Assembly (NCBI RefSeq): GCF_011493005.1
Contig: NZ_CP049156.1
Location: 310,001 to 374,000, forward strand
Reading direction: 5' to 3'
Length of the DNA: 64,000 bases
Source of the DNA: Caballeronia sp. SBC1
Lineage (GTDB): Bacteria; Pseudomonadota; Gammaproteobacteria; Burkholderiales; Burkholderiaceae
Positions 3,103-25,088 of the stretch are shown in pieces. How positions within the stretch are numbered: the stretch's first letter is position 1; each line of letters opens with the position of its first letter. Under the pieces are notes generated by a model. It was not told the origin of the DNA. It saw only the letters and a list, made by a program, of their open reading frames with translations, and ran no database searches. A program made the translations under genes and the position numbers.

Positions 3103-5798
3103 GTTTATCAACGCCGCAGATCACGGCACAGCTCGAACGGGTATTGGCGAGCGATCCGACGGCCCAGGCCATCGCGATTCGCGCGGAGGCGAGGCAAGTT
3201 TGGCCCGATGTTGTCTCCCATCATGGCCGGCAATTTCAGCTGCGTTGGTGCGAGTCGTCGTTGGCCATCCGCGAAGCTCTGTGCAAATTCGAGCTTCAGG
3301 ATTCGGTCGCCTTTGGTATGGTCGTCATCACACCTTTGTCGACGCACGAAGTTGGTGAAGACATCGCTGCGCGGCTGGCCCGAGCCCGGGTTTTCCAGCC
3401 GGAAGGATGGGACATCGTTCGATCGATGTTCGAGGCCAAGGATACCGATGCCCGGCTAGGCAGATTTGCGTGGATGCCGCAAGCATTGATCGATGGTGCG
3501 TCACAGGGGGCCTATCAGCCTGTAGCCAATGGATTCCTCGATCTGGAGACGGCTTGGCGAGAGGTGCTCACGCGGTTTCTCGGGATCGAGTCGGCACGGC
3601 CTGACGCCGTGGCTTTGCTCCGGTGGTCGATTACCCCGGACGCGGATCCGCGGCTGGATCCCTTGCCCGTATCGATGCGATCGGACATCGTTTCCTGGCT
3701 CGCAGAAACTGCCGGCGTGGCGGGCGCCATGGTGCTAGGTTGCGTTGAAGCGGCCCGCACAAGCGATGCGCTGCCTTTGGGACTAGTAAGTGGCGTCATC
3801 TTCGCCGCCGATGGTGAAGGACAGGCCGCACTTGGCCAGGCCGCGATCCGCCTTGAGCGCTTCGTCAACGACAGGCACGTTGGCGTCGCTGAAGGCCGGG
3901 CGTGGGCTGCCGCAGCGGAACAATCGGTTCGGAGCTTGGGCTTGGAGGCCTGTCGGGCCACGCTGGATCGTGCAGATGCCTTGTTGCGTGATCTTCGCAT
4001 TTCCGAGTTTGCACAGCTGAGCGATGTGCTTCCGTCGGCGCTTGATCAGCGCCTGACGGACTTCGCTCTGGCGTTGAGCGCTCACGCGGTCGAGCCCAGT
4101 GAGGCGAATCTCCAGCAAGTGGAGGTTCAGGCCGATCGAGCGCTCAAGCATGCACAGATGAACGACCAGAAGACGCGCATGGAGCGCGTCGAGATGGCGC
4201 GACGCCTGGCGCGTTGGCTGCTCAGCCCGATGGCCTCTGGAAAAACACTGCCCGACTCGATCGAATGGCAAGCCGACCAGGGCGCCTATGTCGACTGGGC
4301 CAGGTTCAGGCTCTTGGGCGGCGACGAGCTGACTGAACTGTCTGACGCCTATGCTGCATGCCGCAAGGCGGTCATCGCGCGACGCGACGCGTTCGCCAAG
4401 CCATTTGCCCACGCTTTGGTGCAATGGAATACACATACGTCGACGGACAGTGGGCGCGTCGTTCCGCTTGAGCGAGTTCTGGACAGCGTGCTGGCACCGA
4501 TCGCGGCAGCGCAGCCGACGCTATTACTGGTGATGGACGGCTTAAGCAACAGCATTTTTCGCGAGCTGTTCTCGCGGGTGGCCGGGCAAGGCTGGACAGA
4601 GCTGGTGCCGACGGCACTGGGCAAACCTTTGGTTGGCGTCGCAGCGGTCCCGACCGTCACCGAGGTGAGCCGCGCCAGCTTGTTGTGTGGTCGGTTGACG
4701 ATTGGCACGCAAGGGCAGGAGAAACCGGGATTCGCAGCTCACGCGGCCTTGCTGGCACACAGTCGAGCTGAACAGCCACCGAAGCTCTTTCACAAGGGAG
4801 ACCTCGCTGATGCTGGCAATCTGTCTCCAGAAGTCCGGGCCGCCATCTCGAATCAGCGCCAGCGCATTGTGGGCGTGGTCTACAACGCAGTCGACGACCA
4901 CCTCAGCGGTCCCGACCAACTTAACCAGCGCTGGGCTCTGGAAGACCTTCGGCACTTACTACCCTTGTTGCGGGAAGCCCGGGAAGCCAGGCGCGTGGTG
5001 GTGATCACAGCGGATCACGGCCACCTGCTGGAGGATGGGACTACGCTAGTTCCTGGCGGTGAGAGTGACCGTTGGCGTCCGGGCAAGACCGCCGCGTCAT
5101 CACAGGAAGTTGCTGTCAGCGGCGGACGGGTAGTCACCAGCGACGGTTCCCACGCGGTGGTCTGCCTGTGGGGAGAAAGCAGCCGCTATGCGGGTCGCAA
5201 GAATGGCTACCACGGCGGGTTGTCGCCGCAAGAGGTTACGGTCCCGCTGAGCGTGTTTGTGCCTGTGGGGGCCAGCCTTGCGGGTTGGAGCCCTGCGTCA
5301 CCGAACCAGCCAGAGTGGTGGGAGCTTCCGCCCATCCTACAGCCCAGGAAGCCCGCAACTGCGGTGCAGCAGCCGAGACCTACACGAAAGAAGCCGGCGG
5401 AGATCGAGGCGCAGCCTGGACTGTTCGCACTGGTCGATTTGCTGCCGCCAGCGACGCTGGAAGCTGCCGCCTATGACTGGATCGGCGGGTTGTTGTCCAG
5501 CCCGATCTATGCGTCGCAACGGCAACTGGCAGCACGTGTGGCTTTGCCGGACGACAAGATGAGACTGCTGCTAGAGGCGCTCGCCGAACGTGGCGGGAAG
5601 CTATCCCGGACGGCATTGGCGAATCGGCTTTCGCTTGCCGAGGTGCGCATCGGCGGGCTGTTGAGCGCAGTTCGGCGCATGCTGAACGTAGACCAGGCAG
5701 TGGTACTCACCGTCGACGAGACTGCTGGCTCGGTCGAACTCAACATTGCCCTGCTGCAGCAGCAATTCAAGTTGCCCCGTCAAGGAGTCGCCCGATGA
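3099..5798 (+). CDS. pglZ: BREX phosphatase-fold protein PglZ
   Basis: This is an 899-residue protein with the signature of the PglZ family, an alkaline-phosphatase-superfamily domain that defines BREX systems. Visible metal-site elements are LLLVMDGLS (about residue 475), ITADHGHLLEDG (about 635) and the PglZ-typical YHGGLSPQEVTVPL (about 703). The N-terminal 400 residues are mostly helical, and the last 120 residues look like a winged-helix or helical tail (KLSRTALANRLSLAEV). Length agrees with type 2 PglZ proteins. The start codon overlaps the upstream stop by four bases (ATGA) and the stop overlaps the next start in the same way, so it is translationally coupled within the operon. Its biochemical role in BREX is not settled in the family. 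Confidence 0.9.
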   Translation: MSLSTPQITAQLERVLASDPTAQAIAIRAEARQVWPDVVSHHGRQFQLRWCESSLAIREALCKFELQDSVAFGMVVITPLSTHEVGEDIAARLARARVFQPEGWDIVRSMFEAKDTDARLGRFAWMPQALIDGASQGAYQPVANGFLDLETAWREVLTRFLGIESARPDAVALLRWSITPDADPRLDPLPVSMRSDIVSWLAETAGVAGAMVLGCVEAARTSDALPLGLVSGVIFAADGEGQAALGQAAIRLERFVNDRHVGVAEGRAWAAAAEQSVRSLGLEACRATLDRADALLRDLRISEFAQLSDVLPSALDQRLTDFALALSAHAVEPSEANLQQVEVQADRALKHAQMNDQKTRMERVEMARRLARWLLSPMASGKTLPDSIEWQADQGAYVDWARFRLLGGDELTELSDAYAACRKAVIARRDAFAKPFAHALVQWNTHTSTDSGRVVPLERVLDSVLAPIAAAQPTLLLVMDGLSNSIFRELFSRVAGQGWTELVPTALGKPLVGVAAVPTVTEVSRASLLCGRLTIGTQGQEKPGFAAHAALLAHSRAEQPPKLFHKGDLADAGNLSPEVRAAISNQRQRIVGVVYNAVDDHLSGPDQLNQRWALEDLRHLLPLLREAREARRVVVITADHGHLLEDGTTLVPGGESDRWRPGKTAASSQEVAVSGGRVVTSDGSHAVVCLWGESSRYAGRKNGYHGGLSPQEVTVPLSVFVPVGASLAGWSPASPNQPEWWELPPILQPRKPATAVQQPRPTRKKPAEIEAQPGLFALVDLLPPATLEAAAYDWIGGLLSSPIYASQRQLAARVALPDDKMRLLLEALAERGGKLSRTALANRLSLAEVRIGGLLSAVRRMLNVDQAVVLTVDETAGSVELNIALLQQQFKLPRQGVAR

Positions 5799-7105
5799 TC
5801 AGTGATGCACGCAGAGAGGATATTGTCAGCGCGCTACGCCGCGGTACTGTGCCAAGCAGCGGCCTGGATGCCCTGGCCGTAGGCATTGAAACCTTTGGGC
5901 CAACGCTGACCGAAGAGCTTGAATCGGTGGCTTCCGGGCGCGGTGGGTTCAAGGCAGTGCGTGGCGAATACGGCACCGGCAAGACGTTCTTTGGCCGCTG
6001 GCTGCAAGAGCGCGCCCGCTCGCGAGGCTTCGCGGCGACCGAAGTTCAGATCAACGAAAGCGAGACGCCGCTTCATCGGCTAGAGACCGTCTACCGGCGC
6101 TTGGTGGAACACCTCGGCACTGCTGACATGGCCAGCGGCGCATTCAGAGGCGTGATCGACGGATGGTTCTACGCCCTGGAGCAAGATGTCCTGGCTGACT
6201 TAGAAGTGGACCCGGAGGATGCCCAAGGCTTGCTGCAGCGCACGGATGCGCTGATGGAAGCGCGACTCAACGTTATCAGCAAGACGGCGCCGGCATTCTC
6301 GGCAGTGCTGCGCACTTACCGGCAGGCATTGGCCAACAACGACGGCATGCTAGCCGACGGCCTTATCAGTTGGCTGGCCGGCCAGCCCAACGTGGCGGCC
6401 AGCGTGAAGCGCGCAGCCGGCATCAAGGGCGACTTGGATCACTTTGGCGCAAGCAATTTCCTCGTTGGCCTGCTCACCATCTTGCGGGACAGCGGCTTTG
6501 CCGGGCTTGTGATGGTACTTGATGAGGTGGAAACGCTTCAGCGAATGCGCACCGATACGCGCGAAAAGGGTCTTAATGCGCTGAGGCAATGGATCGACGA
6601 GATCGATGCAGGCCGCTACCCAGGTCTATATCTAATCATCACCGGAACCCCTGCTTTTTTTGATGGCCCGCAAGGGGTCCAGCGGCTTGCGCCGCTCGCC
6701 CAACGGTTGCATGTGGACTTCGGTACGGACCGCAGATTCGACAATCCTAGAGCGGTTCAGATCCGGTTGGCGCCTTTCGACCACAGCGCACTGCTGTCAG
6801 TGGGACGTCGCGTGCGTGACATTTACGCGGAAGCGCGCGAACACGAGCAGCGCCTTCGAGCCGTTGTCGATGATAGCTACCTGGATGCCTTGGCGCGAGC
6901 TGTGGCGGGTGGTCTTGGGGGGAAGGTGGGCGTGGCGCCGCGCCTGTTTCTGAAGAAGCTCGTCGCAGATGTCCTTGATCGCGTGGACCTGCATGCCGAC
7001 TTCGACCCGCGCCAGCACTATTCGCTGACCTTAGCCGAATCTGAGATGTCTGCCATCGAGCGTGCGGCGGCGAGCGCCAGCTCCGTGGATGACATTGAGC
7101 TGTGA
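5795..7105 (+). CDS. brxD: BREX ATP-binding protein BrxD
   Basis: A 436-residue P-loop ATPase. The Walker A motif GEYGTGKT is at residues 57-64, Walker B GLVMVLDEVETL at about 236-247, and a sensor-like stretch LIITGTP follows at about 275. The small AAA protein between pglZ and a helicase is diagnostic of BREX types 2 and 6, where it is named BrxD (DUF2791-type ATPase). Both ends overlap the neighbouring genes by four bases (ATGA before, GTGA after). The role within BREX is thought to be ATP-dependent remodelling or DNA transaction, but no substrate is known. The family call is firm because of both motif pattern and position. Confidence 0.88.
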   Translation: MISDARREDIVSALRRGTVPSSGLDALAVGIETFGPTLTEELESVASGRGGFKAVRGEYGTGKTFFGRWLQERARSRGFAATEVQINESETPLHRLETVYRRLVEHLGTADMASGAFRGVIDGWFYALEQDVLADLEVDPEDAQGLLQRTDALMEARLNVISKTAPAFSAVLRTYRQALANNDGMLADGLISWLAGQPNVAASVKRAAGIKGDLDHFGASNFLVGLLTILRDSGFAGLVMVLDEVETLQRMRTDTREKGLNALRQWIDEIDAGRYPGLYLIITGTPAFFDGPQGVQRLAPLAQRLHVDFGTDRRFDNPRAVQIRLAPFDHSALLSVGRRVRDIYAEAREHEQRLRAVVDDSYLDALARAVAGGLGGKVGVAPRLFLKKLVADVLDRVDLHADFDPRQHYSLTLAESEMSAIERAAASASSVDDIEL

Positions 7106-9144
7106 GCGAATTCGAGCAATTGCACCCATCCCTCCAGTACCACGTGGTAAACACCTTGGGCTGGAGCACGCTGCGCCCCACGCAGTTGGCTGCAATCCCG
7201 CCGATACAAGCCGGTTTGCATTGCCTGCTATTAGCACCGACAGCCGGTGGTAAGACAGAAGCGGCCGCCATCCCCATCCTGTCACGGATGCTGAAGGAGT
7301 CCTGGCCTGGTACGAGTGTCCTCTACATCTGCCCTATCAAGGCCCTACTGAACAACCTTGAGCATCGGCTGACCCACTACGCAGGACTCGTCGGTCGCAC
7401 GGTGGAGGTCTGGCACGGCGACGTGTCGCAGTCACGCAAGAAGAAAGCGCTGAAAGAGGCCCCGGACATCTTGCTGACAACGCCGGAATCGCTCGAGGCG
7501 ATGCTGATTTCCGTCAGAGTGGACCGCCCCAAATGGTTCGGCAATCTGCGTGTCGTGATTGTCGATGAGTTGCACGCCTTCGCCGCTGATGACCGTGGCT
7601 GGCACATGCGTTCGGTGCTGCATCGGCTAGAGCACTACATGGAACAACCGCTCCAGCGAGTCGGCTTGTCCGCGACCGTCAGCAACCCAGCCGAGTTGCT
7701 GGACTGGTTCGCACCCGTTGGTGAAAGGCGTGTGGTCGGTAGCGCCTCGGTAAGCACCGATGCCGATGTCACCATTGACCACGTGGGCACGCTTGAAAAC
7801 GCCGCGACGGTGATTTCACGCTTGCACCGCGGCGAAAAGCGCCTGGTGTTCTGTGACTCACGCAGCAGCGCGGAGCAACTGAGCAGCATGCTGCGAGCGA
7901 AGCAGGTGCGAACCTTTGTTAGCCATGCGTCGCTCAGCGCGTCCGAGCGCAAGCAGGCCGAAGCTGCATTCGGTGAAGAAAAGGACTGCGTAATTGTTGC
8001 GACATCGACGCTGGAACTCGGCATCGATGTCGGTGATTTAGACCGCGTTATTCAGATCGACTCTCCCTCGACCGTGTCGTCGTTCCTGCAGCGAATGGGT
8101 CGCACGGGTAGACGAGCAGGCGGCCGGCGCAATTGCCTGTTCTTGACGACTAGCCGAGATGCCTTCATGTTGGCGCTGGGCATCACGCACCGCTGGTCTC
8201 AGGCGTGGGTCGAGGCCGCGAGGCCGCCAGAAGAGCCTTGGCACATCGCTGCGCAGCAGATTCTCGTGGCCACATTAGAACGAGGCGAATGGCCCGTTAA
8301 TGAAATGATCGCGCTTTTGGCGCATTGTTTCCCTGAGCTGCCGCCAGATGGAATCAGATTGCTCGTCCATCACATGATCCACGAGGTTTATCTGGATAGT
8401 GCGCAGGGCCTTGTCCGCATTGGATCGCGTACTGAACGCGAGTTCGGCCGAGGCCATTATCGAGACTTGCTGGCCTCATTCAGCGGCGCCCAACTTTTGA
8501 CCGGGCGGTTCGGCAGTGCGGAGGTCGGCTATATCGACCCGACGGTGCTGATAAGTGAGGCTCGTCCCCGCCTGCTCTTGTTGGCCGGTCGCAGCTGGCT
8601 TGTCAATGAAATTGACTGGGGCAAACGTACAGTCTGGCTGGAGCCCGCGAAAGAGGGTGGCAAAGCTCGGTGGATGGGCAGTGCGCGCAGCTTAAGCCAG
8701 ATGGTTTGCCAAGGCATTCGCGCCGCACTTGCCAATGGCGCACCGCCTGCCGTGGTTTTATCTCAGCGGGCAAAGATCGAGTTCGCAGCCTTGGAGGAAG
8801 AACTGGCAATTTCGCCGGATGCGCATTTCATGTCAAGGCTTGAGGAAGGACAGGCGCGCACTTGGACGTTTGCAGGCACGAAAATAAACCGGACCTATGC
8901 CCGGGCTGCTGGTAATGGCGGAGCGCGCATCAAGTTTGATGCACTGAGTGTTCAAGCGCCAGTGGCGGCTTTGCAGCTTGGTCTCAGTCGGGACGCGGCC
9001 TTACCACTGACAGGTGAAGAGCAAAAAGCTTTTGCCGACGCGATCAAATTCGCCTCCGCTGTCCCATCCGACTTACTTCGCCGGACTATTCTTGCGCGAA
9101 ATTTTACGATACCCGTTGCCGAACGACCAAGCGTGGAGGATTAG
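7102..9144 (+). CDS. brxHI: BREX-associated DEAD/DEAH helicase (BrxHI type)
   Basis: A 680-residue superfamily 2 helicase. Motif I is APTAGGKTEA (about residues 43-52), motif II is VIVDELHAF (about 152-160), motif III-like SATVSNP follows, and motif VI is QRMGRTGRRAG (about 328-338). The accessory C-terminal half resembles Lhr-like helicases. Translation starts at a GTG that overlaps the brxD stop (GTGA). Position directly after brxD matches the brxHI gene of type 2 and type 6 BREX. It probably unwinds or translocates on DNA during defence. All catalytic motifs are present, so the gene looks intact. Confidence 0.87.
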   Translation: MSEFEQLHPSLQYHVVNTLGWSTLRPTQLAAIPPIQAGLHCLLLAPTAGGKTEAAAIPILSRMLKESWPGTSVLYICPIKALLNNLEHRLTHYAGLVGRTVEVWHGDVSQSRKKKALKEAPDILLTTPESLEAMLISVRVDRPKWFGNLRVVIVDELHAFAADDRGWHMRSVLHRLEHYMEQPLQRVGLSATVSNPAELLDWFAPVGERRVVGSASVSTDADVTIDHVGTLENAATVISRLHRGEKRLVFCDSRSSAEQLSSMLRAKQVRTFVSHASLSASERKQAEAAFGEEKDCVIVATSTLELGIDVGDLDRVIQIDSPSTVSSFLQRMGRTGRRAGGRRNCLFLTTSRDAFMLALGITHRWSQAWVEAARPPEEPWHIAAQQILVATLERGEWPVNEMIALLAHCFPELPPDGIRLLVHHMIHEVYLDSAQGLVRIGSRTEREFGRGHYRDLLASFSGAQLLTGRFGSAEVGYIDPTVLISEARPRLLLLAGRSWLVNEIDWGKRTVWLEPAKEGGKARWMGSARSLSQMVCQGIRAALANGAPPAVVLSQRAKIEFAALEEELAISPDAHFMSRLEEGQARTWTFAGTKINRTYARAAGNGGARIKFDALSVQAPVAALQLGLSRDAALPLTGEEQKAFADAIKFASAVPSDLLRRTILARNFTIPVAERPSVED

Positions 9145-9159
9145 TCACAGGAGCCAGTC

Positions 9160-10482
9160 ATGGGTTATGTATTCACGAGGAAGCAGTTGTACGAGCTAGT
9201 CTGGACCGGTCCAATCACAACGCTAGCAAAAACGCTTCTTATCTCCGACGTGGGTCTTGCGAAGGCGTGCCGGCGCGGCGACATTCCACTACCCCCGCGT
9301 GGTTACTGGGCGAAGCTGACCGCCGGCAAGTGCGTTGCACGCCCTCTGCTACCGCTGCGTGCGCCGGGCGCCTCCGATCGAGTGGAGGTGGGGTCTGGAC
9401 AGCCTCGGTTGTTCCGGCCGGATAACACCGATGGCAACGATGACGGTGTGGAACGTGACGACCCGCCGCCCGAGCCCCCGGTCTACGACGAGGCCCTAGA
9501 CGCAGTCGAGGCGCGGATCCGTCATGCACTGCCCGCTAAATTCAAGTTTGCGCGTGGCCTCGACAACGCACACCCGCAGATCGCGCGGCTGCTCCGCGAA
9601 GATGACGAACGCCGCGAGGCGATGACCAAAACCAGATACGCGTTTGACAAGCCGCGCTTTGAGAGCTACTTCGAGCAGCGCCGGCTGGCGTTTCTGAGCA
9701 ATCTGTTCCTGCTGCTGGCCCGGGTCGATGTGCAGGGATTGGTTCGGGGACGGGAAGCCCGCGAGCTAAGCGCCCATGTCGGTGACCAGCACGTCAAGCT
9801 GAAGGTGGAGACGCTGGCAAGCCTGCGACCCCGCAAAAGCCACGCTCATGAAAAGAAGAATGAACCGATGGCGATCGAGGTCGAAGTCGCTCGCTGGCAG
9901 CATGGTGAGCGGGAAGAACGGCTGTTCTGGAGTGACGGCGAAGACGGCAAACTAGAAAACCGGCTGCAAGAGATCAGTATTGCGATCGTACTGGTCGGCG
10001 AGCGGCAGTACCGCAAGGCGCGGCAGTTCTCCTACGAATGGGACAGGCGCAGCTTTGAGGAAAAGATCGAACGGGCCCGGACAGCCCGGGAAGAGGCCGA
10101 GCGGCAGCAGCAAGAAGCGCGTCAGCAGGCCGAAAAAGACGCAATTTCCAGCTTGCTATCCAAAGTCAGCGCACATCACCAAGCGCAGCAGATTCGCGCG
10201 TATGTTGTTGCGACTACCACATCACCGCACGCAGTCCAAGGTCGGGCGTTTGACGGAGAGCGTGAAGCATGGGCGCGCTGGGCGCTGGCTGTGGCGGACC
10301 ATCTCGATCCCTTGGCGCTAGCATTGCCTGTAGATTCCGGCGGCCGTGCGGGATCACTGGAATCGGACAATCCAGAGCACCAGACTCACGCGTCAGATGG
10401 TTCGGCTCCGAACGAGTGCGAGTGTCACTCAAGTAATCGAGCCGATACTGATCGGACCAAAACCGACTCTCGCAACCGATGA
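9160..10482 (+). CDS. BREX-linked protein with N-terminal HTH-like domain and coiled coil
   Basis: Unrecognised 440-residue protein. It starts 15 bases after the helicase stop behind a good ribosome site (AGGAG), so it is very probably the last gene of the BREX operon. The N-terminus (YVFTRKQLYELVW, then DVGLAKACRRGDIPLPPRGYW) has the pattern of a sequence-reading HTH and is a motif I recall from uncharacterised proteobacterial accessory genes. Residues 95-115 are acidic and proline-rich. Residues 300-330 form a strongly charged coiled coil (repeated EEAERQQQEARQQ type). The last 50 residues are polar and probably disordered. It is not one of the named BREX proteins known to me. It could be a regulator, an anti-defence sensor or a separate defence gene carried as cargo. 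Confidence 0.75.
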   Translation: MGYVFTRKQLYELVWTGPITTLAKTLLISDVGLAKACRRGDIPLPPRGYWAKLTAGKCVARPLLPLRAPGASDRVEVGSGQPRLFRPDNTDGNDDGVERDDPPPEPPVYDEALDAVEARIRHALPAKFKFARGLDNAHPQIARLLREDDERREAMTKTRYAFDKPRFESYFEQRRLAFLSNLFLLLARVDVQGLVRGREARELSAHVGDQHVKLKVETLASLRPRKSHAHEKKNEPMAIEVEVARWQHGEREERLFWSDGEDGKLENRLQEISIAIVLVGERQYRKARQFSYEWDRRSFEEKIERARTAREEAERQQQEARQQAEKDAISSLLSKVSAHHQAQQIRAYVVATTTSPHAVQGRAFDGEREAWARWALAVADHLDPLALALPVDSGGRAGSLESDNPEHQTHASDGSAPNECECHSSNRADTDRTKTDSRNR

Positions 10483-10587
10483 GAATTGTGCGTTCCATTC
10501 CAACTTTGAAAACGCTTGCCAACTACAAAGCCGCAGCTCAGAGTCCTAGAAAAAACCTAGCTAAGCAACACGGATATGGTGTCTAGC

Positions 10588-11934
10588 TCAAGGGAACACA
10601 ATGGCAGCTAGGTGCGAGGATGAGTGTTTGGCGGTGAATTCGGTCAGATTTTCCTGCAGCCAAGGAGCGAGCCGGTTCGGTACGTCTCGGGTTGATTTCA
10701 GTACCCCCGTTCCGTCGTTATAGATGAAGTCCTTGTGGTTGCGGATCAGCCGACCTGAGCGAATGAGGTCCACGATGAACGTATCTCCAAACCAGCAACT
10801 GAGCAAGTGTTCCCGTGGCACGTCATAGACATCGATGTACGTCTTCTTGTGCGTCATGATCTCGTAAATCTCCGCCGCCATGAAGAGGAGGAAAATGCCG
10901 TCACGGCATTTGCGGTAGCTCAGCGGATCGCTGATGACCAAACGAAAGCAATCGACCTCGAAGTCATTCACCTTCGAGGCAACCAGAAAGAAGTGCTCGT
11001 AGTTGCGCCTTTTGTGGTCCACGACGTCGTCGATGGCGTCCAGCTCGCGCAGGCTGCGCCCGGCCGGAATGATTATGCTGAGCTTCTCTCCGCTCGCGTT
11101 GGCCCGCTTGACGAGTTCATAGGCTCCTCTCAGACTTCGGCGCCATTCGGTTCCCATCTCCGCACCCGGTCCGTTGTTATAGATGTGCGCGCAGGACCCG
11201 TCAATCCACTCGCCACTGACCCAGAACTGTTCGGCGACGTATCGAATCAATTCCTTGTCGGCGAACTCGGCAAGGCTCAAACTGTTCGAATAGATCGCGC
11301 GGCTCATGCCGAAAGGCTTGAGTGCCTGCACTGCATCGGTATTCCTCACGTCGTGCTCGGAGAAAAGACTACGTAGGTGCTGCCCTGGAACATCGGCGTC
11401 CAGCAGATAGGGCCGGATAGACGATCCAATTTCACTTTCTAGTCTCCTATAAAAAGCCTCAATCTTGGCGGAATCGGCCGCCGCAACAAGGATCTTGAAC
11501 AGATCGCCTAGGTCATAAATGTCCTGATCAGGATCGAAGCTGAAAGCACCTTGTGTGCGGATAATTCGATGGCTATCGTAGGTGCCTTGCTTGTCGCCGA
11601 GGATGATGAATTTCAATTTGGAGTAGGTGCGTTCCAAGCCGTGCGCAAAGAACTTCTGCTGCGTCTCGACGATTTTTGTCGTGTGCGACGAGATCGTGAC
11701 TTGAATGGCGCAATCCGCCCCCGACGAAGCGAGGTCGACGGCGGGAAAGCTGGTCTCCAAATTCAAATTGACGAGGTCCTTGTAGCCGAAGACGATCTCC
11801 GCGAGATCTCTTGCTAAGGGCTCACCAAAGATTGCGACATCCAAGAGACGAGCCTTCGACTTGAGCTCGATGTAATGTTTATAAGCGGCCAAATAGATCG
11901 CAAGGCGATCGGCAAGAGCTTGCGTGGAGTTCAT
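10588..11934 (-). CDS. SMEK domain-containing protein
   Basis: A 448-residue protein, starting at the methionine before NSTQALADRLAIYLAAYKHYI. Residues 1-140 match the SMEK domain: a helix followed by ETSFPAVDL (about residues 60-68), AIQVT (76-80) and KIVETQQKF. This is the layout of a restriction-endonuclease-like core with an acidic residue and a QxT strand. SMEK domains are found in bacterial conflict systems. Residues 170-448 are not recognised. The gene lies 208 bases downstream of a large ATPase on the same strand, so the two are probably co-transcribed. No strong ribosome site is visible at the chosen start; an in-frame upstream start at 12,048 would add 38 residues. It is convergent with the BREX operon. 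Confidence 0.7.
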   Translation of the reverse strand: MNSTQALADRLAIYLAAYKHYIELKSKARLLDVAIFGEPLARDLAEIVFGYKDLVNLNLETSFPAVDLASSGADCAIQVTISSHTTKIVETQQKFFAHGLERTYSKLKFIILGDKQGTYDSHRIIRTQGAFSFDPDQDIYDLGDLFKILVAAADSAKIEAFYRRLESEIGSSIRPYLLDADVPGQHLRSLFSEHDVRNTDAVQALKPFGMSRAIYSNSLSLAEFADKELIRYVAEQFWVSGEWIDGSCAHIYNNGPGAEMGTEWRRSLRGAYELVKRANASGEKLSIIIPAGRSLRELDAIDDVVDHKRRNYEHFFLVASKVNDFEVDCFRLVISDPLSYRKCRDGIFLLFMAAEIYEIMTHKKTYIDVYDVPREHLLSCWFGDTFIVDLIRSGRLIRNHKDFIYNDGTGVLKSTRDVPNRLAPWLQENLTEFTAKHSSSHLAAIVFP

Positions 11935-12142
11935 CGGTGTAAAGGTGCTGATAAATGAAGCCTCGCCGAAGCGCTTCGATTCTTGATTGCTGAACAGGAT
12001 CAAGCAGGACGTTCGACCTCGCAGACCCAACGGATTTTGACGCGGCAATTGTCCCTACGCCATTGCCTGATTGTAGGAAACTCCACGGGCCACCGCGTCA
12101 CCGTCGCCTTCCCGGCTCTATGGCAAGCGTCTTCTGGCTAAC

Positions 12143-14779
12143 TCATGCATTCAGACCTTCTTTTCTTCGGCGGTCGCCTACCTCTTTCAATCTAGCTGCC
12201 AGTCGGTCAACCGTCTTTCCTAGTGTCTCGATGTCCGCAACAAAATCGTCGGGCTCGGGCAACGGCGGCGGAGCCTCAGCGCCCCCCTCATGCGTGAAAG
12301 ATGAGCAGCGCGACATCCCTTGGGATACGGCCTGAACATCCTCGTCGGCGACAAGGACGGAATTCAAACGTTGGGTCTCCACTGAACGACGGAAACGCTT
12401 CACCGCTTCGTTAAACAGAAGGTCCTCGACGACAAGCTCCCATGTGTCCCGCATTCGGCGGTACCCCTGTCTGACCAAACTGTTGTAAGCCTCGTGATCG
12501 TGATCTTTCTCAAGAGCCCTTCGGGCTTTTGCACCCAAAGCACGAAGGTCGTTAACCCTCGCGTCAAGCTTCTTTGCTTCAAACGGAAGGCTGTTGCTAC
12601 TATGACCTTTGCTTTCGCCTGCAGCAAATACATGACGCTCAGAATACTTCGCGCCGTACTTTTTGGCGAAATCACGCAACGACCAGGCGAACGCGAGGTC
12701 GTGGGTAAAAACAATAACCTGTCGTGCTTTGGCCTCTTTTGCGAGACGTATTGCGATCCGATCTCTGCGGACGTGGTCGAGGGAAGAGACGGGGTCGTCA
12801 AAAACGATTCCTGAACTCTCTCCTTCAATACCTATCTCCGCCAAGAATGAAGCCAAGGCAATTGTTCGTTGCTCACCCTCGCTCAGAACCACAGAGGGTT
12901 TGAGCTTCGCAAAAGCCGCCGGCGCGGCGAGCTTAAGTTTTTGCATTCGCGCGCCGCGTTGCCCGGACATTTCAAGGCCAACCAGTGCGACGGGCAGTCC
13001 GAGCGCCTTGAATTCCTCCGCGAGACCAGCCTGCAACTCAGCAGTCACCGTCTTCTCGTAAAGCTCGTTCATCTTTTTTGTGACGCCAGCGGTTCCACAT
13101 GCTCTGATGGTTTCGCTATAGGCGTGATCCCGCTTCATCGCAGCTATGCAATCAAGCACGTCGTCGAGAAGCTCCTGTAGTTTCTGACGGGCTTCAAGAT
13201 CGGCAAGTCGAGCAGACTTTGACTTCCGCTCCTCCGGCGTAATAGCCTTCTCAAGCTTCACCGCCTGCTCAATCTTATTTTCCCGGAGAATTTTCACCGC
13301 GGCCAAAGGCGAAGGAGCAAGCGCAACGAGCGGGCTGAGCACGCGTTTGGGCGCCATTTCGATGACAGACTGCTTCCTGATAGCGAGGTCGGCAACCCAT
13401 GTCCGTATAGCCGATGCCAGCTCAGGCACATCTTCCGTCAACTCATCGAGGAGCGCTGCGTCAGATGGGAATGCATCGAAATTGGTGGCCGCAATAGACT
13501 TATATAACGCAGCAGCTACTTGCCGGTGATCGCTATACTGCTTCTGTGAATCTGCCTCCAGAAACTGCACAAATCCTTTCAGACGCTCACTTGCTTCTGC
13601 AGAAAGCGACTGCTGACATAGCACACACTTCGCATCGTAGTGGGGGCCTGGAAATTCATGTCCCGGATACGCGGAATCGGCTGCGAATTTGATTGCGCTC
13701 CGGACCAAGACTTCCCACGGATCGGTGCCCGTCCCAGCGAGTGCGGCACCTCCCTCAGCGAGCGATGCCGAAGCAAGCTTCGAGGCTGTTTCCGCAGCGA
13801 TGAGCTGCTCGAAAGCGAGACCGAGCTTGGCTAAGTGTCCATCCGAAAGAGTCCCCTGCAAAGCAGCGACCTCGTTCTCCAGCGTTTGCAGGCGGACTGC
13901 GAACCGGCGCAGTGCGACCGCTTGCTTTGCCGGGTCTTCATCGAGCAGGAGCTTTACGAGTAGTTGCCGCTCCAGTTCCTCTTCGGCATTGATGCCTGCT
14001 TGGTCCTCAACTGTTTTCACCGCGGTCGAGTGCTTGAGTGATGCGATTAGCTTTCCGACTACCGTGTCGCCTTGAAGGGTAGCGAGTCTTCGCATATCAA
14101 ATTTTTCTCTCTGAGCCTCATCTTCAAGAAGTCTTTGAACGCGCTGAAGTCCTAATGCTAGGTCGCGTAAGACGTCGAGGCCATAGGGAATAAACGAAAC
14201 CGCCGCCTGATCATCCACGAAAACGCGAGCGCAATGACTATCGAACACTGCAATTCTTGATAGAGCAGCCGGCGCCGGCCGCCCGTCGTCCACCCAGTCA
14301 CCGAACTCCATCTTCCCGTTAATCTCCCACTCAAATTCCGCCTGAGCTGGGCCCGCTTTCCCTCCGGAGGAGAAAACATTGGGATGGATGCCCTCAGTGT
14401 TTCGGGCGCGACATGCCTTTTTCAAAGCACGGGCATATCCCGACTTCCCGGCGCCGTTGTAACCATAGACGATGGTTAAACCTAACGGCTCAAAACTTAT
14501 TCCATCAGGCGATCCAATGGCGTTCAGATTCGTTGGCGAACGAATGGCGGTTAGGCTAACGGTCAATTCGTCCTTTGCTACCGCCGGCAGCGAATCTGGC
14601 TTGAGCGGTTGCGCCACACGCCCATGCGGATCTTTGAAGCCGTGCTTGGTTTTCAGTAGTGCAGCAAGGTCTGCGATGTCTTCGTCGCCAAGCGTTCCGT
14701 GAGCGAAGAGTCGACCTATCGCGTCCGACATCCAACCCGGCTGCTCGCTCGCCCACGCTGCAATTTCACCAATTATCAA
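12143..14779 (-). CDS. ABC/SMC-type ATPase with CxxC hook, RloC/PrrC-like candidate
   Basis: About 878 residues from a TTG start preceded by GGGGGC; a TTG 51 bases further up is an alternative. The N-terminal 60 residues form a helical domain (AAWASEQPGWMSDAIGRLF). Walker A is GYNGAGKS. The ABC signature is LSEGEQ and Walker B is IVFDDPVSSLDH, followed by the H-loop FTHD. Between the two halves lie long helices with a CVLC motif at about residues 384-387, resembling the zinc hook of Rad50 and RloC. After the ATPase there is RDTWE (777-781) and a histidine at 830 in CSSFTHEGG. This fits the R-x3-E...H arrangement of PrrC/RloC anticodon nucleases, but the residue assignment is my inference. A SMEK gene follows on the same strand. 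Confidence 0.7.
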   Translation of the reverse strand: MIIGEIAAWASEQPGWMSDAIGRLFAHGTLGDEDIADLAALLKTKHGFKDPHGRVAQPLKPDSLPAVAKDELTVSLTAIRSPTNLNAIGSPDGISFEPLGLTIVYGYNGAGKSGYARALKKACRARNTEGIHPNVFSSGGKAGPAQAEFEWEINGKMEFGDWVDDGRPAPAALSRIAVFDSHCARVFVDDQAAVSFIPYGLDVLRDLALGLQRVQRLLEDEAQREKFDMRRLATLQGDTVVGKLIASLKHSTAVKTVEDQAGINAEEELERQLLVKLLLDEDPAKQAVALRRFAVRLQTLENEVAALQGTLSDGHLAKLGLAFEQLIAAETASKLASASLAEGGAALAGTGTDPWEVLVRSAIKFAADSAYPGHEFPGPHYDAKCVLCQQSLSAEASERLKGFVQFLEADSQKQYSDHRQVAAALYKSIAATNFDAFPSDAALLDELTEDVPELASAIRTWVADLAIRKQSVIEMAPKRVLSPLVALAPSPLAAVKILRENKIEQAVKLEKAITPEERKSKSARLADLEARQKLQELLDDVLDCIAAMKRDHAYSETIRACGTAGVTKKMNELYEKTVTAELQAGLAEEFKALGLPVALVGLEMSGQRGARMQKLKLAAPAAFAKLKPSVVLSEGEQRTIALASFLAEIGIEGESSGIVFDDPVSSLDHVRRDRIAIRLAKEAKARQVIVFTHDLAFAWSLRDFAKKYGAKYSERHVFAAGESKGHSSNSLPFEAKKLDARVNDLRALGAKARRALEKDHDHEAYNSLVRQGYRRMRDTWELVVEDLLFNEAVKRFRRSVETQRLNSVLVADEDVQAVSQGMSRCSSFTHEGGAEAPPPLPEPDDFVADIETLGKTVDRLAARLKEVGDRRRKEGLNA

Positions 14780-15049
14780 AATTTGCCCCCGGATCTGTAG
14801 TTTTTTCTTATGACGATTCTGCCACAGCAAAGGGTAAGGAAAACGTACCTCTCAATCGGTGCGCACGGAGTTAAACATATGTATATGCCGATCGAGAACG
14901 AAGCCGCATCGATAGTCCGATGACTAACGTCCGCACGACCAGAGCGAAAAGGTAAGCGCAGACGTCACAGCCTAAGCTCGCCGCGAAGCTAACCACAACA
15001 AGAAAATGCGCGACCACCGGCCGCGCATCGAGAGAATTGAAACCTGTCC
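14780..15049. other. Intergenic region upstream of the ATPase gene
   Basis: A 270-base gap separating the start of the minus-strand ATPase gene from the displaced 3' end of the IS-interrupted gene. It should carry the promoter of the ATPase/SMEK pair. I see no clear -35/-10 pair, repeat or RNA gene. Confidence 0.4.
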
Positions 15050-15084
15050 TCAGTGAATGATTGTCTGCCGGAAGACCGGTTGTA
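15050..15084 (-). pseudogene. Displaced 3' end of the IS-interrupted gene
   Basis: These 35 bases, read on the minus strand, encode the final residues VFRQTIIH and the stop codon of the gene whose main part is at 17,719-18,353. Removing the IS and one copy of the 7-base duplication joins the two parts in frame (635 + 28 = 663 bases, 220 residues), which shows they were one gene before insertion. Confidence 0.85.
15078..15084. repeat. Target-site duplication of the IS21 element, left copy
   Basis: The sequence GGTTGTA directly precedes the TG at the left end of the element and recurs directly after its right end at 17,719-17,725. IS21 elements typically duplicate 4-8 bases. Confidence 0.88.
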
Positions 15085-15089
15085 TGAAT

Positions 15090-15215
15090 ATTCCACGCCA
15101 AAGTGAACAGGGATTCCACGGCAAAAAGAACACGAATTCCACGGCAAAGTTAATGCCGATTCCACGGCAAAAAGAACAGGGTTTCCACGCCATCGCGAAC
15201 AGGAATTTGAGGTGG
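15090..15215. repeat. IS21 left multiple terminal repeats
   Basis: Five degenerate copies of a roughly 22-25 base unit beginning TTCCACG(C/G)CAAA are arranged head to tail (near 15,090, 15,114, 15,138, 15,160 and 15,184). They are probable transposase-binding sites. Inverted copies are at the right end of the element. Confidence 0.8.
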
Positions 15216-15267
15216 CGGCGACGCGGGTCAACGGTGGCACGATCGACAGTTTTGTCGGGAGTGCCGA

Positions 15268-16815
15268 ATGGCAAATGTCAGGTTGACCATGCGCAAAATC
15301 AGGGAAGTGCTGCGGTTGCATTTCGAGTGTGACCGCAATCAGAGGGAAATCGCCGACGCGGTGGGTGCCTCGACGACGACGGTGTGGCATTACCTGCGCC
15401 GCACGCGGCTGGCAGGGCTGAGCTGGCCGCTGCCACCGGAACTGCTGACAGACGACGCGGCGCTCGAGGCAAGGCTGTATCCGCCGCCGGCGCGGCGCGA
15501 GCCAACGCGCGGCATGCCGGACTGGCCGACGGTGCATCGCGAGATCGGCAGGAAAGGCGTCACGCTCGATCTGCTGTGGCAGGAATACAAGGCGCAGCAT
15601 CCGGACGGCTGCGGCTACAGTTGGTTCTGCAAGGCTTACCAGGAATGGGCACAGCGGCTTCCGGTCACGATGCGGCAAACGCACGTGCCGGGCCAGAAGC
15701 TGTTCGTCGACTACTCGGGCAAGAAGCTGGGCATCATCAACCCGGACACCGGTGAAATCCGCGAGGCCGAGTTGTTTGTCGCTGCGCTCGGCGTGTCCGG
15801 CTTCACCTTCGCGGAACTCACGTGGACCCAGCAGTTGCCAGACTGGATCGGCTCGCACGTGCGCGCCTTCGCGTTCTATAACGGTCTGGTCGAGATACTG
15901 GTCCCTGACAATCTAAAATCGGGCGTGCACAAGCCGGGGTTTTACGATCCGGACATCAATCCAACCTACCAGGAAATGGCTAGGCATTACTCCGTGGCCG
16001 TCATCCCGGCTCGCAGTAAAAAACCGAGGGACAAGCCGAAAGCGGAGCTGTCCGTCCTCCTGGTGCAGAGATGGGTCCTCGCCCGCCTGCGCAACCAGCG
16101 CTTCTTCAGCCTGGGCGAGGCTAACCGGGCGATCGCCGCGTTGCTGAGTGATCTGAACAACCGGCCCTTCAAGAAGCTGCCTGGCTCACGCCGTAGCGTC
16201 TTCGACGAAATCGATCGCCCGGCACTCAGGCCGTTGCCCGAGCAGCCCTATCAGTACGCGGAGTGGAAGGTCGCGCGTATCGGCCCGGACTATCACGTCG
16301 AGCTAAATCAGCACTATTACTCGGTGCCGTATCGCTACGCGCGCGAACAGGTTGACGTGCGCCACACGATCAACACCGTCGAGATCTTCCATCGCGGCCA
16401 ACGCATTGCCGCTCACGGCAAAAGCGCTCGCCGTCGTTACCACACCACGATCGACGCGCACATGCCGCCGGAGCACTTGGCTGTTGCCAAGGGCTGGGAT
16501 CCGGAGCGGCTGCGCAACTGGGCCGCCGACATCGGCCCGCATACGGCAGCCGTCATCCAGCACCTGCTGGGTGCCCGCAAGCATCCCCAGCAGTCGTATC
16601 GCACCTGCCTGGGTGTGCTGCGCATGGGCAAGGACTACGGGCGCGACCGGCTCGAAGCTGCTTGCCGCCGCGCCATCGATCTGAAAGCGCCGAACTACAA
16701 GTTCATTGACTCGACGCTAAAGAACGGCCTGGACCGGGAGCCCGAACCCACTACCGTGCAGGCCGACCTGCCGCTTGTGCATGCCAATGTGCGCGGGCCT
16801 TCGTACTATCACTGA
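15268..16815 (+). CDS. istA: IS21 transposase IstA
   Basis: A 515-residue transposase. An N-terminal HTH (REIADAVGASTTTVWHYLRR, about residues 26-45) is followed by a DDE integrase core: the first Asp in LFVDYSGKKLG (about 150), the second in LVPDNLKSGV (about 212) and the Glu in KPKAELSV (about 258). The C-terminal beta-rich region (YHVELNQHYYSVPYRY) is typical of IstA. The length is normal for the family. istB follows 18 bases later with its own ribosome site. It works together with the ATPase IstB to cut and join element ends. Confidence 0.95.
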   Translation: MANVRLTMRKIREVLRLHFECDRNQREIADAVGASTTTVWHYLRRTRLAGLSWPLPPELLTDDAALEARLYPPPARREPTRGMPDWPTVHREIGRKGVTLDLLWQEYKAQHPDGCGYSWFCKAYQEWAQRLPVTMRQTHVPGQKLFVDYSGKKLGIINPDTGEIREAELFVAALGVSGFTFAELTWTQQLPDWIGSHVRAFAFYNGLVEILVPDNLKSGVHKPGFYDPDINPTYQEMARHYSVAVIPARSKKPRDKPKAELSVLLVQRWVLARLRNQRFFSLGEANRAIAALLSDLNNRPFKKLPGSRRSVFDEIDRPALRPLPEQPYQYAEWKVARIGPDYHVELNQHYYSVPYRYAREQVDVRHTINTVEIFHRGQRIAAHGKSARRRYHTTIDAHMPPEHLAVAKGWDPERLRNWAADIGPHTAAVIQHLLGARKHPQQSYRTCLGVLRMGKDYGRDRLEAACRRAIDLKAPNYKFIDSTLKNGLDREPEPTTVQADLPLVHANVRGPSYYH

Positions 16816-16833
16816 AGCTGAAAGGGAGTCTAT

Positions 16834-17592
16834 ATGCTGCATCATCCCACTGTCGACAAACTACACGCGCTGCGCCTGCCCGGCATGGCGGCGGCGCTTG
16901 CCGAGCAACAGTCCCAGGACGGCATTGACCGGCTGGGCTTTGAAGAACGTCTGGGGCTGCTGGTCGAGCGTGAATCCAGTGAACGTGACTCGCGACAAAC
17001 GGCGGCCCGGCTGCGTCGGGCCAGACTGAAGGTCCCCGACGCGTCGCCCGAGGACATCGACTATCGCACCCCTCGCGGCCTGGACCGGGCGCTCACCGCC
17101 CGGCTGCTGACCGGTGAGTGGCTTCGGGAGAGGCAGAACCTTATCCTGGTTGGTCCGACTGGTCTCGGCAAGAGTTGGTTGGGCTGCGCCTTCGCCATCC
17201 AGGCGTGCCGCCAGGGGTTCTCCGCCTGCTATCTGCGCGTGCCGAAACTAAACGACGAACTGGCGATTGCACACGGCAGCGGGCGCTATGCGCGATGGCT
17301 CGCACAACTTGCCAAGACGGATCTCGTGATTCTCGACGATCTGGCAATGGCGCCGCTGACCGATTCCGCGCGGCGCGACCTGCTGGAGGTGCTCGATGAC
17401 CGGCACGGACACCGATCCACGCTGGCCACCAGCCAAATTCCAGTGGAGCACTGGCATGAGGCAATCGGCGAACCCACCGTCGCCGACGCGATCCTTGACC
17501 GACTCGTGCACAACGCTCATCGCATCACGCTCGCGGGCGAATCGCTACGCAAGACGCGCAGTCGATTGACCGCAAAGCCGCAGTCCGAGTAA
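16834..17592 (+). CDS. istB: IS21 helper ATPase IstB
   Basis: A 252-residue AAA+ ATPase related to DnaC. Walker A is GPTGLGKSW (about residues 107-115) and Walker B is LVILDDLAMAP (about 165-175), with an arginine-finger-type stretch near the end (DRLVHNAHRITL). The start is preceded by AAAGGGAG. IstB loads on target DNA and stimulates IstA; its presence with IstA and intact motifs indicates a complete element. Confidence 0.95.
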   Translation: MLHHPTVDKLHALRLPGMAAALAEQQSQDGIDRLGFEERLGLLVERESSERDSRQTAARLRRARLKVPDASPEDIDYRTPRGLDRALTARLLTGEWLRERQNLILVGPTGLGKSWLGCAFAIQACRQGFSACYLRVPKLNDELAIAHGSGRYARWLAQLAKTDLVILDDLAMAPLTDSARRDLLEVLDDRHGHRSTLATSQIPVEHWHEAIGEPTVADAILDRLVHNAHRITLAGESLRKTRSRLTAKPQSE

Positions 17593-17629
17593 AAAGGTAA
17601 AGGTCCCGCGTCGCTACGCTCCGCTTGTT

Positions 17630-17712
17630 CGCGATGGCGTGGAATCCTTGTTCACTTTGCCGTGGAATCACGATTCACTTTGCCCTGGAATGGCTGTTCA
17701 CTTTGCGTGGAA
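17630..17712. repeat. IS21 right multiple terminal repeats (inverted)
   Basis: Four copies of the unit GTTCACTTTGCCGTGGAA or close variants, one of them the GCGATGGCGTGGAA variant, run to the right end. They are inverted relative to the left array; the innermost copy on each side shares the GCGATGGCG variant. Confidence 0.8.
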
Positions 17713-19474: not shown

Positions 19475-20749
19475 ATGGCTCGTGTTATCTACATCAAGTA
19501 TCAGCAGCAATGCGTTGCAGGCGTAACAGAGACAGACATCGATTGGCAAGACCTGAAGGAAGCGGCGGTCGACGATTTTCCTCAAATCTGTTGGGCAGAT
19601 GGGGCGGTGTGGGCGGAAGCCAATCTTTGGGCTCTTCATATGGCTGCTCTCCAACGGAAGTTGAGGACAATTGTTAGCGCAATGACTAATTTGCTTACTT
19701 TTGCTAATTGGCTCGAGTCAACTAATCTTTCATGGTGGCACTTCCCAGACCTCGAAAAAGAGCGTTGCATTTTTAGGTACCGTAAGGCACTGACGGACAT
19801 GCGTGATGACGGGCAATTCGCTCCAAGCACAGCGACTCAGCGGATGAATACAGCGCTTCGGTTTTATCTATGGATCTACAAGGTCGGTCTGATTTCCGAA
19901 TCTGCACCTATGTCCGAGGTACCAGTCGTTGGCGTTCAGGTGGCCGATCGATTCGGCTTTGATGATTCGATGAAGCCCGATGTCGTTGCTGAGCTCGCGA
20001 TTAAGAATAGGGGTGTCGTCGGTGGCGTCAAACTTGAGGACGGAGTGCTTCCTGTTAGCGCTGCTGACATGGCCGTTATATTGAAATGGGCAAAAAAGCA
20101 TGCGTCAGAGGAGCTGTACCTAATCTTGTGGATTGGTTTCTGGACTGGACTCCGAATTGGGTCAATTCTCGATCTAAAAAAGCAAACTATTGAAAATGCA
20201 ATCTTTGACCGCGAAATGGGTATCTATCAACTTTCAGTTGGGCCGAGAGCTCTCCCCCGCGTCGACACGAAGAATGATGCGGACGGACAAGTCCTCATTC
20301 CTCACGACTTGCTGCGAGCGCTACGAGCTTACATGTGGAGTGGTCGTCGTTTGTTGAGGGAGGGAAAGGCGAGTGAACAGGTCCGAAATCATCTATTTAT
20401 TACTCGTTGCGGAAATGCCTACAACCAAGAAGCTTCCAAAGCAATCTGGGTAGAAATGCATCGACTGCGAAAGCTAGCTGACGCACAAAATTTTGTTCCG
20501 TTTTTTGGGTTTCACATCCATCGGACAAGGGCGACCTTCGCGACCGAACTTATGAGACTTGCTCTGAAACACATGGAGGTGGCAGATGCCGTGCAGTTTG
20601 TAAGAAATGCGCTGCTACACGTTGACGAAAAGACTACGTTTGATTACATCAATTTCATCCACACGCAAGGAGAGTTAGTCCACGTTTTTGACGAATTTAA
20701 CCAGCAGTTTATGGGATGTTGGGGCGGTGCAAAAGATGCGGAAAGGTGA
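19475..20749 (+). CDS. Tyrosine recombinase 1 of the island trio
   Basis: A 424-residue phage-integrase-family protein. The C-terminal catalytic domain shows Arg227 in TGLRIGSILDL, the box II pattern HIHRTRATFATEL at residues 347-359, LLHVDEKTTF with a histidine in the position before the nucleophile, and Tyr391 in FDYINF. All catalytic residues therefore seem present. The N-terminal 180 residues form the core-binding region. Base composition is AT-richer than the chromosome. The next recombinase starts within its last 14 bases, so expression is coupled. Three consecutive recombinases plus a small protein resemble the Tn554 (tnpA, tnpB, tnpC) type of organisation, with three enzymes instead of two. 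Confidence 0.85.
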   Translation: MARVIYIKYQQQCVAGVTETDIDWQDLKEAAVDDFPQICWADGAVWAEANLWALHMAALQRKLRTIVSAMTNLLTFANWLESTNLSWWHFPDLEKERCIFRYRKALTDMRDDGQFAPSTATQRMNTALRFYLWIYKVGLISESAPMSEVPVVGVQVADRFGFDDSMKPDVVAELAIKNRGVVGGVKLEDGVLPVSAADMAVILKWAKKHASEELYLILWIGFWTGLRIGSILDLKKQTIENAIFDREMGIYQLSVGPRALPRVDTKNDADGQVLIPHDLLRALRAYMWSGRRLLREGKASEQVRNHLFITRCGNAYNQEASKAIWVEMHRLRKLADAQNFVPFFGFHIHRTRATFATELMRLALKHMEVADAVQFVRNALLHVDEKTTFDYINFIHTQGELVHVFDEFNQQFMGCWGGAKDAER

Positions 20750-24493: not shown

Positions 24494-24947
24494 TGAAGGA
24501 GCAGCTAAGAAAGTCCCGAGCAAGGCTGAGACGCGCTTCCGGCAGGCTTTTGTGCGATTGCAAACAGGAAGCCCTGTCATCCTTCCAAAGGGTTCTCGGG
24601 TTTCACAAAACAACGTGGCGCGGGAGGCTGGGCTTGACTCCACGGCACTGCGTCGCAGCCGCTTCCCTGGCCTGGTCGATGACATCCAGGAATGGATTGA
24701 CGCAAATTCCGATAAGCAGGCGGCAACATCGGTTCGTCAGCAGACCGTCGAACGCAGGGGGCGGAACAAATCGTTGAAAATTCAACTTAAGGAACGAACT
24801 GATGAGCGAGATCAAGCAGTTTCGAAGCTCGTTGACGCTCACCGCCACATTCTGACGCTCTTGATGAAGATCCAACGGTCGGCTGGAGAACTGCCTGACG
24901 AGGCTTCCGTTATTGAGTTGCGGTCTCGGCGGAAAAAGCGTTCCTGA
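24474..24947 (+). CDS. Small HTH/coiled-coil accessory protein of the recombinase operon
   Basis: A 157-residue protein whose ATG lies 20 bases inside the third recombinase gene, behind GGAGA. The segment VSQNNVAREAGLDSTALRRS (about residues 44-63) reads as a helix-turn-helix. It is followed by a charged coiled coil (LKIQLKERTDERDQAVSKLVD). The arrangement resembles TnpC of Tn554 (DUF6262-like), a small helper encoded after the recombinases. It probably directs or regulates recombination. Last gene before the island end. Confidence 0.7.
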   Translation: MPSPPVDEGAAKKVPSKAETRFRQAFVRLQTGSPVILPKGSRVSQNNVAREAGLDSTALRRSRFPGLVDDIQEWIDANSDKQAATSVRQQTVERRGRNKSLKIQLKERTDERDQAVSKLVDAHRHILTLLMKIQRSAGELPDEASVIELRSRRKKRS

Positions 24948-25048: not shown

Positions 25049-25088
25049 ATGTAAACCGTGCTGTCTCAGATGCTTATGTAAACCGTAC
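25049..25088. repeat. Direct repeats at the island end (candidate recombinase sites)
   Basis: ATGTAAACCGTGC at 25,049-25,061 recurs as ATGTAAACCGTAC at 25,076-25,088 (12 of 13 bases, 27 bases apart). The second copy abuts the broken comM frame. Position and direct orientation suggest recombinase binding sites at the attachment end. Confidence 0.65.

Follow-up and report, generated by a model that had tools for sequence, protein, structure and literature searches.

In a 64,000-nucleotide (nt) stretch of the Caballeronia sp. SBC1 genome (contig NZ_CP049156.1, positions 310,001 to 374,000 of the forward strand; hereafter the window, in whose coordinates positions are given), two adjacent genes encode an ATP-binding cassette (ABC) ATPase with a CxxC hook and a protein with a SMEK domain, which the original prediction had joined into a two-gene defence module. 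We favour another reading, to which we assign a probability of roughly 60%: the ATPase would be a stand-alone RloC-like sensor-effector, and the SMEK protein a separate, Mrr-type nuclease. The ATPase looks like a real and conserved variation on the RloC kind of defence, rather than part of a new two-gene system, and by analogy it is a single-gene candidate anti-phage protein.

A check of the open reading frames (ORFs) confirmed that both genes are real, that they lie on the same strand at the coordinates below, and that the ATPase carries the motifs read from it before (Walker A, CVLC, LSEGEQ, Walker B, RDTWE and H830) at the following residues. Upstream of its TTG start, the ATPase frame remains open to 14830, and the SMEK frame is open upstream of its ATG as far as a TTG at 12048.

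12143..14779, minus strand: ATPase gene, encoding a PDC-S06-type ABC ATPase of 878 amino acids (aa), TTG start
ATPase domains: N-terminal helical extension, residues 1–73; ABC head, residues 74 to about 731, interrupted by coiled coils; helical domain at the C-terminus, residues about 735 to 878
14441..14464, minus strand: Walker A, residues 106–113 (G106–S113), invariant or nearly so
13616..13627, minus strand: CVLC hook, residues 385–388, in a loop between helices 353–370 and 394–407 of the structure model
12869..12886, minus strand: ABC signature LSEGEQ, residues 632–637, from motif and alignment
12791..12808, minus strand: Walker B IVFDDP, residues 658–663, with D661, D662 and P663 in 205/205 homologues
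12701..12703, minus strand: H-loop histidine H693, in 205/205 homologues
12437..12451, minus strand: R777-D-T-W-E781, putative catalytic R-x3-E, in helix 762–788 of the model
12290..12292, minus strand: H830, putative catalytic histidine, just past helix 812–829 of the model
10588..11934, minus strand: SMEK-domain gene, 448 aa, ATG start
11449..11916, minus strand: Mrr-like domain of the SMEK protein, about residues 7–162, from a profile match to 26bh
11674..11736, minus strand: putative nuclease residues D67, Q78-V-T80 and K87 of the SMEK protein, from conservation among homologues

The ATPase matches the Pfam family AAA_13 above its gathering score (56.1 versus 36 bits) in two stretches, the better of which covers residues 390–731 of the 895-aa frame and profile positions 247–590 of 713. 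No NCBIfam model scores above its cut-off. In PADLOC, the ATPase is matched nearly end to end by a model of PDC-S06, a class of phage-defence candidates (PDLC04891; E-value 2.2e-186, residues 19–878 of the 895-aa frame, model positions 3–854 of 858), and also near full length by a second model of this class, PDLC04893; we found no difference that would set it apart from PDC-S06. Its conservation was followed in two sets of homologues. From a search of which the best 120 of 765 matches were usable, 79 sequences were combined with those of 18 loci and the window protein into a 98-sequence alignment (26–87% identity to the window protein), whose invariant positions include G111, K112, S113, C385, C388, S633–E636, D661, D662, H693, R777, E781 and H830. 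The wider set, defined without six locus fragments below 600 aa and the window's own copy, holds 205 homologues of at least 600 aa, and the hook cysteines C385 and C388 are present in every one of them. Judged from these alignments, the conservation of C385/C388 and of R777/E781/H830 exceeds chance.

An AlphaFold2 model built on the 98-sequence alignment (mean predicted local distance difference test score, pLDDT, 85.1; predicted template modelling score 0.59) has helices within residues 2–45, an ABC head from about residue 74, and long helices flanking the CxxC loop (370 to 394). The invariant CxxC between long helices is thereby a predicted zinc hook. In fold searches the head matches Rad50 and SMC structures, and the rows shown for searches of the PDB and of viral folds with the whole protein are all Rad50/SMC-type heads, with no PrrC or RloC structure among them. 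The N-terminal extension (residues 1–73; 14561–14779, minus strand) is helical in the model, has conserved residues W9, W16, R23, L30 and D34, and is without a Pfam match.

The part of the ATPase on which its proposed function hinges is the C-terminal tail with its R-x3-E...H pattern. R777 and E781 each occur in 204 of the 205 homologues and H830 in 203, the remaining positions (one, one and two) being gaps, and wherever a homologue has letters at all three positions, all three residues are present (203/203; L046 and L048 are gapped). The conservation that the original prediction had proposed to check is thus borne out. Among 29 loci collected later, 22 could be aligned at these positions and all 22 agree, though not all 22 are independent. 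In a diverged set of 26 tails, consisting of the window's own and 25 others, drawn from the 40 that diverge most among 84 locus tails, only R777, E781 and H830 are invariant; since these tails share just 13–35% identity with the window's, such a pattern is typical of a catalytic site. The model predicts tail helices at 738–757, 762–788 (which holds R777 and E781), 812–829 and 843–873. These four helices would fit the four-helix HEPN fold; in the structure searches, run with the whole protein, the matches shown belong to the ABC head. We consider the tail a putative RNase with an R/E/H centre.

The closest known counterpart of this architecture is RloC, in which (here and below, published work is cited from extracts of the papers) these three residue types are indispensable and the nuclease is kept in check by the hook cysteines (PMC2610378); the nuclease is switched on by linear DNA together with the ATPase and cuts tRNA, the hook holding it down (PMC2610378, PMC3874168), and DNA breaks elicit the response (PMC3874168). 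For comparison, we built a family from the RloC-type protein at locus L101, taking the best 120 of its 256 matches, 13 of which are listed by JGI as ‘wobble nucleotide-excising tRNase’; RloC is represented here by these RloC-type proteins. Both cysteines as well as R, E and H are present in all 124 sequences of the RloC-type set. In a profile-profile comparison, this family and that of the ATPase align over 301 columns (probability 99.3%, E-value 2.9e-20), beginning at the hook and reaching slightly beyond the H-loop (about residues 380–709 of the ATPase), and the alignment stops near 709. By this measure, the head and hook of the ATPase are homologous to those of RloC. The spacing of the key residues is likewise similar. 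The L101 protein has its hook cysteine at C290 and its triad at R684, E688 and H728, and the published residues of Geobacillus kaustophilus RloC are C291, R692, E696 and H737 (PMC2610378); from the hook cysteine to R there are 392 residues in the ATPase, 394 in the L101 protein and 401 in G. kaustophilus RloC, and from E to H 49, 40 and 41, respectively.

The likeness to RloC therefore comprises the ABC head, the coiled coils with a CxxC, the C-terminal R-x3-E and H, and the lack of a fixed partner gene, whereas the tail itself appears to share with RloC merely the residue pattern, the position and, in the model, the helical nature. Five tail-only hhalign runs against the RloC nuclease domain each returned a probability below 1%. 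There are two further differences: Walker A is at residue 106 in the ATPase but at 31–47 in four RloC-type proteins (L101, L103, L104 and L105), where it is too near the start to leave room for an extension of about 73 residues, and these four proteins, which also match PDC-S06, have one AAA_13 stretch over nearly all of profile positions 3–713. The original prediction of an RloC-like ATPase with a possible anticodon nuclease tail is accordingly supported with respect to the hooked head and the conserved R-x3-E...H; the tail domain, which does not align with the RloC nuclease, is at most a candidate anticodon nuclease or HEPN fold. We rejected filing the protein as RloC for this reason and label it RloC-like instead.

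It is nevertheless conceivable, if doubtful, that the ATPase is a genuine anticodon nuclease of the RloC type. This would be one special case of the reading preferred here: the tail would be a diverged RloC HEPN domain that cuts the tRNA anticodon loop. The homologous head, the same position of the tail, the same R-x3-E and H and their similar spacing all speak for it; the failure of the tail profiles to align, the N-terminal extension with its late Walker A, and the restriction of the best AAA_13 stretch to 247–590 of 713, with a second stretch passing, speak against it. An equally tentative extension runs in the opposite direction. PADLOC places both the long branch to which the ATPase belongs and the RloC-type proteins under PDC-S06, and the long branch might be a separate class of zinc-hooked toxin-ATPases, in which an RloC/Rad50-type sensor is joined to a nuclease domain that Pfam has yet to name; this domain would have an R/E/H centre of its own (of separate origin or diverged beyond recognition) and cut a different RNA. 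If so, one sensor chassis has carried at least two distinct RNases. The branch may already be covered by an earlier classification of ABC-ATPases cited in PMC10853773.

Two other known systems bear comparison. PrrC likewise joins an ABC ATPase to an R-x3-E...H tail, a pattern it has in common with RloC (PMC2610378), but only a 41-residue ABC stretch of the ATPase matches the PADLOC PrrC model (E-value 0.00023), and PrrC is linked to a type I restriction-modification system, whereas the ATPase has a CxxC hook and a BREX neighbour. The ABC-HEPN fusions APECO1_4465 and ERFG_01251 resemble it by description, with an ABC head, a C-terminal putative RNase and a location on mobile islands (PMC3710099).

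Several observations weigh against a stand-alone RloC-like RNase. Besides the failed hhalign runs, a Pfam scan of the 26 tails at E-values up to 10 gave scattered, unrelated-looking matches and nothing convincing, and a PDB sequence search with the tails gave no convincing match either (best E-value 0.32). Read as the R-x4-6-H motif of HEPN proteins, R824-x5-H830 is imperfectly kept, position 824 being R in 160, K in 37 and another residue or a gap in 8 of the 205 homologues. None of the best 120 of 765 ATPase homologues bears the JGI name found among the RloC-type proteins, their JGI names being mostly those of ABC transporters; the nearest relatives of the ATPase (61–87% identity) are not among the loci viewed in context; and the literature passages found on PDC-S06 list or count it and assign it no function.

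The lack of homology to a known nuclease in Pfam, the PDB sequences and hhalign also suits an alternative in which the tail is not an RNase at all but binds or cuts DNA or serves as a regulatory arm, with R777, E781 and H830 in structural roles. Helical domains with buried charged residues exist. We regard this as unlikely, given that R, E and H are the sole invariants among such diverged tails and that together they form the residue pattern of RloC and PrrC.

The proposed pairing with the SMEK gene fares considerably worse. Had the two genes formed a module, the ATPase detecting damage and so permitting one or both nucleases to act, their shared strand, the gap of only 208 nt between the ATPase stop and the SMEK ATG, and the absence of a promoter-like site from 10400–15300 would fit it; the promoter scan (0 sites versus a mean of 2.0 in shuffles) is weakly informative for this organism. 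SMEK domains also serve as effector nucleases of short Argonaute systems (PMC10810196). Yet the adjacency is not conserved. A tblastn search with the SMEK protein against the first 106 ATPase loci matched solely the window's own copy, and a SMEK profile run against the neighbouring ORFs recovered only the window and its copy L001. None of the other 101 loci that hold an ATPase gave a match; the sequence available downstream reaches 2 kb or more in 82 of them, and 70 have 2 kb to either side. Likewise, no SMEK gene was found in 29 further ATPase loci, 27 of them with flanks of at most 1.5 kb. Since the ATPases of the loci inspected for context are at most 60% identical to that of the window and the 61–87% relatives lie outside that set, the two genes may conceivably have been paired recently within a narrow lineage. 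Of these relatives, one from Burkholderia sp. GAS332 stands at 87% identity and a group at 61–67%. For one of them (P0002, 87% identity), the protein extends past the end of the window protein with a different tail, as judged by eye, so that the DNA directly behind the gene differs there.

The search from the SMEK side agrees. Among 399 genomes of the order, 4 have any SMEK match, at full length only in the window's own genome; among 398 genomes of the family Burkholderiaceae, 7 have any match, at full length in the window's genome, in G560 and twice in G697. Around the three foreign full-length copies (68–75% identity), no ATPase lies within the fetched stretches of 13.6–20 kb, and neither G560 nor G697 is among the 43 of 398 family genomes with any ATPase match. 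The 398 genomes drawn for each gene are taken as one set here, as the handles are the same where both draws list them. In total, 23 of them hold a near-full-length ATPase (spanning at least 850 of 878 residues; one has an internal stop), 3 hold a full-length SMEK gene, and the window's genome alone holds both at full length. Partial coincidences occur in G608, where a near-full-length ATPase is accompanied, on a different contig, by a SMEK-like match that is partial (residues 2–270, 29% identity), and in G539, which has only a 3′ piece of the SMEK gene and a weak ABC match. At locus L121, the SMEK gene comes after what appears by eye to be a Tn7-like transposition set.

With ATPase homologues that lack SMEK, SMEK homologues that lack the ATPase, and a single genome with both at full length, we rejected the two-gene system put forward originally and hold it to be very improbable. 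Most likely, chance brought the two genes side by side in the cargo of the island, the SMEK gene probably being a neighbour of the ATPase and not its partner. Among the open-licence papers searched, we found none on such a pair.

No fixed partner emerged from a survey of 103 entries, made up of 101 foreign loci plus the window and L001. Among them, at most 8 loci share a neighbour cluster within 8 kb; all 8 are from viral contigs, and the clustered genes look phage-like by eye. A mechanical rule selected 51 nearby same-strand ORFs (34/34 downstream, 17/33 upstream). Pfam assigned five of these to nSTAND3 and four to Mrr_cat, and many families, of which 25 out of 43 are shown, have one or two members; the same-strand neighbours of ATPase relatives thus include many restriction and toxin families. 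In four Rhodobacteraceae loci (L063, L064, L065 and L069, at 7615–9891), a 758-aa ORF immediately precedes the ATPase gene in the same orientation, 52–109 nt away, and by its sequence and the tally it is most likely the Mrr_cat protein. On a P. terrae plasmid, a 36% relative of the ATPase precedes genes for an ATP-binding protein, a DUF4365 protein and a HEPN protein, a different setting again. While 265 plasmid records match the ATPase, 134 of them over 80% of its length, a search of 50,697 phage records gave no match at an E-value of 1e-5; 24 viral-contig loci hold ATPase relatives, some of them solely RloC-type.

The SMEK protein itself was correctly named: it matches SMEK_N (PF21941) in Pfam with an E-value of 4.7e-32, and NCBIfam agrees. 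Its N-terminal part also matches the PADLOC model of an Argonaute-associated restriction endonuclease, Aga_REase-PNTD, and with a 55-sequence profile, the first third of the protein aligns along some 155 residues (E-value 2.2e-15) with 26bh, the Mrr domain solved for a short-Argonaute effector, D, Q and K falling at corresponding positions. Of the homologues with a letter at the respective position (63 aligned), 59/60 keep D67, 59/60 Q78 and 60/60 K87. On these sequence grounds, the N-terminal domain is a true Mrr-type nuclease domain. The likeness to the short-Argonaute effector ends with this third; no fold is recognised in the C-terminal part, and a Foldseek search of the PDB with the structure model (pLDDT 87.8) gave nothing at an E-value of 0.001 or better. 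SMEK_N is the only domain that Pfam finds in the protein, which thereby lacks the composition of a SMEK-APAZ effector, and a Pfam scan of eight other window proteins found no Argonaute domain. SMEK relatives in viral contigs were not confirmed, and of 19 matching plasmid records none covers more than 80% of the protein.

For the stand-alone ATPase, we envisage the following course of events. Two molecules would join through zinc at the hook, and ATP binding together with the state of the DNA, be it ends or an abnormal intermediate arising during phage attack, would switch the head. This would release the C-terminal tail, whose R/E/H centre would act as an RNase that needs no metal; RNA, by analogy most likely tRNA, would be cut and translation stopped. 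The place of the gene behind a BREX type 2 set, and that of its relatives near restriction- and toxin-type genes, fit a second line of defence, in which the ATPase may act as a back-up behind the BREX system of the same island; HEPN RNases have been reported as auxiliary genes near BREX systems (PMC12839542). The SMEK protein, as an Mrr-type nuclease of its own, would have ended up beside the ATPase as cargo picked up by the same island.

PDC-S06 is common, having been predicted in 38 of the 100 Pseudomonas aeruginosa strains of one panel (PMC10855318), yet the literature passages found assign it no activity. The present comparison separates within it RloC-type proteins and a long branch, whose tail has no named-domain match but three absolutely conserved residues of a catalytic type. 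The conserved triad allows a direct and cheap test, by three point mutants, of the idea that a second type of RNase exists on a Rad50-like sensor, and a tempting but unsupported two-gene reading has been removed.

The surroundings of the two genes are rich in defence genes, as had been claimed. A BREX type 2 core set, PglW, PglX, BrxC/PglY, PglZ, BrxD and BrxHI, lies to their left, entirely on the plus strand (window 1–9144 and L107:9335–18000); PglW and PglX fall left of the window start, in L107, and the BrxC/PglY frame begins just left of it. On the other side, an IS21-family element (transposase and IstB; 15090–17706) with 23-nt direct repeats and inverted ends lies just upstream of the ATPase gene, followed by a recombinase-type quartet (19475–24947) of a 424-aa tyrosine recombinase and proteins of 595, 684 and 165 aa. 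The quartet adjoins a comM-like (Mg chelatase) frame (25066–26214, minus strand); where the two meet, this frame departs from its family directly behind the NPCPCG motif. This break in comM looks like the integration site of an island, and the ATPase, the SMEK gene and the BREX type 2 cluster apparently sit on one island at comM. The quartet resembles the ginABCD set of GInt islands, which consists of three integrases and ginD (PMC5385486), but it points towards comM rather than towards the cargo, and only its first protein (424 aa) has a Pfam integrase match. Its first three proteins have relatives in the Pseudomonas loci L047, L049 and L055, directly beside the PDC-S06 gene. Scans of the window with Rfam (at gathering scores) and for tRNA genes gave no match. 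Behind brxHI, between the BREX genes and the SMEK gene, lies one further gene (9160–10482), whose 440-aa product belongs to no PADLOC or NCBIfam family and has a sub-threshold, implausible Pfam match.

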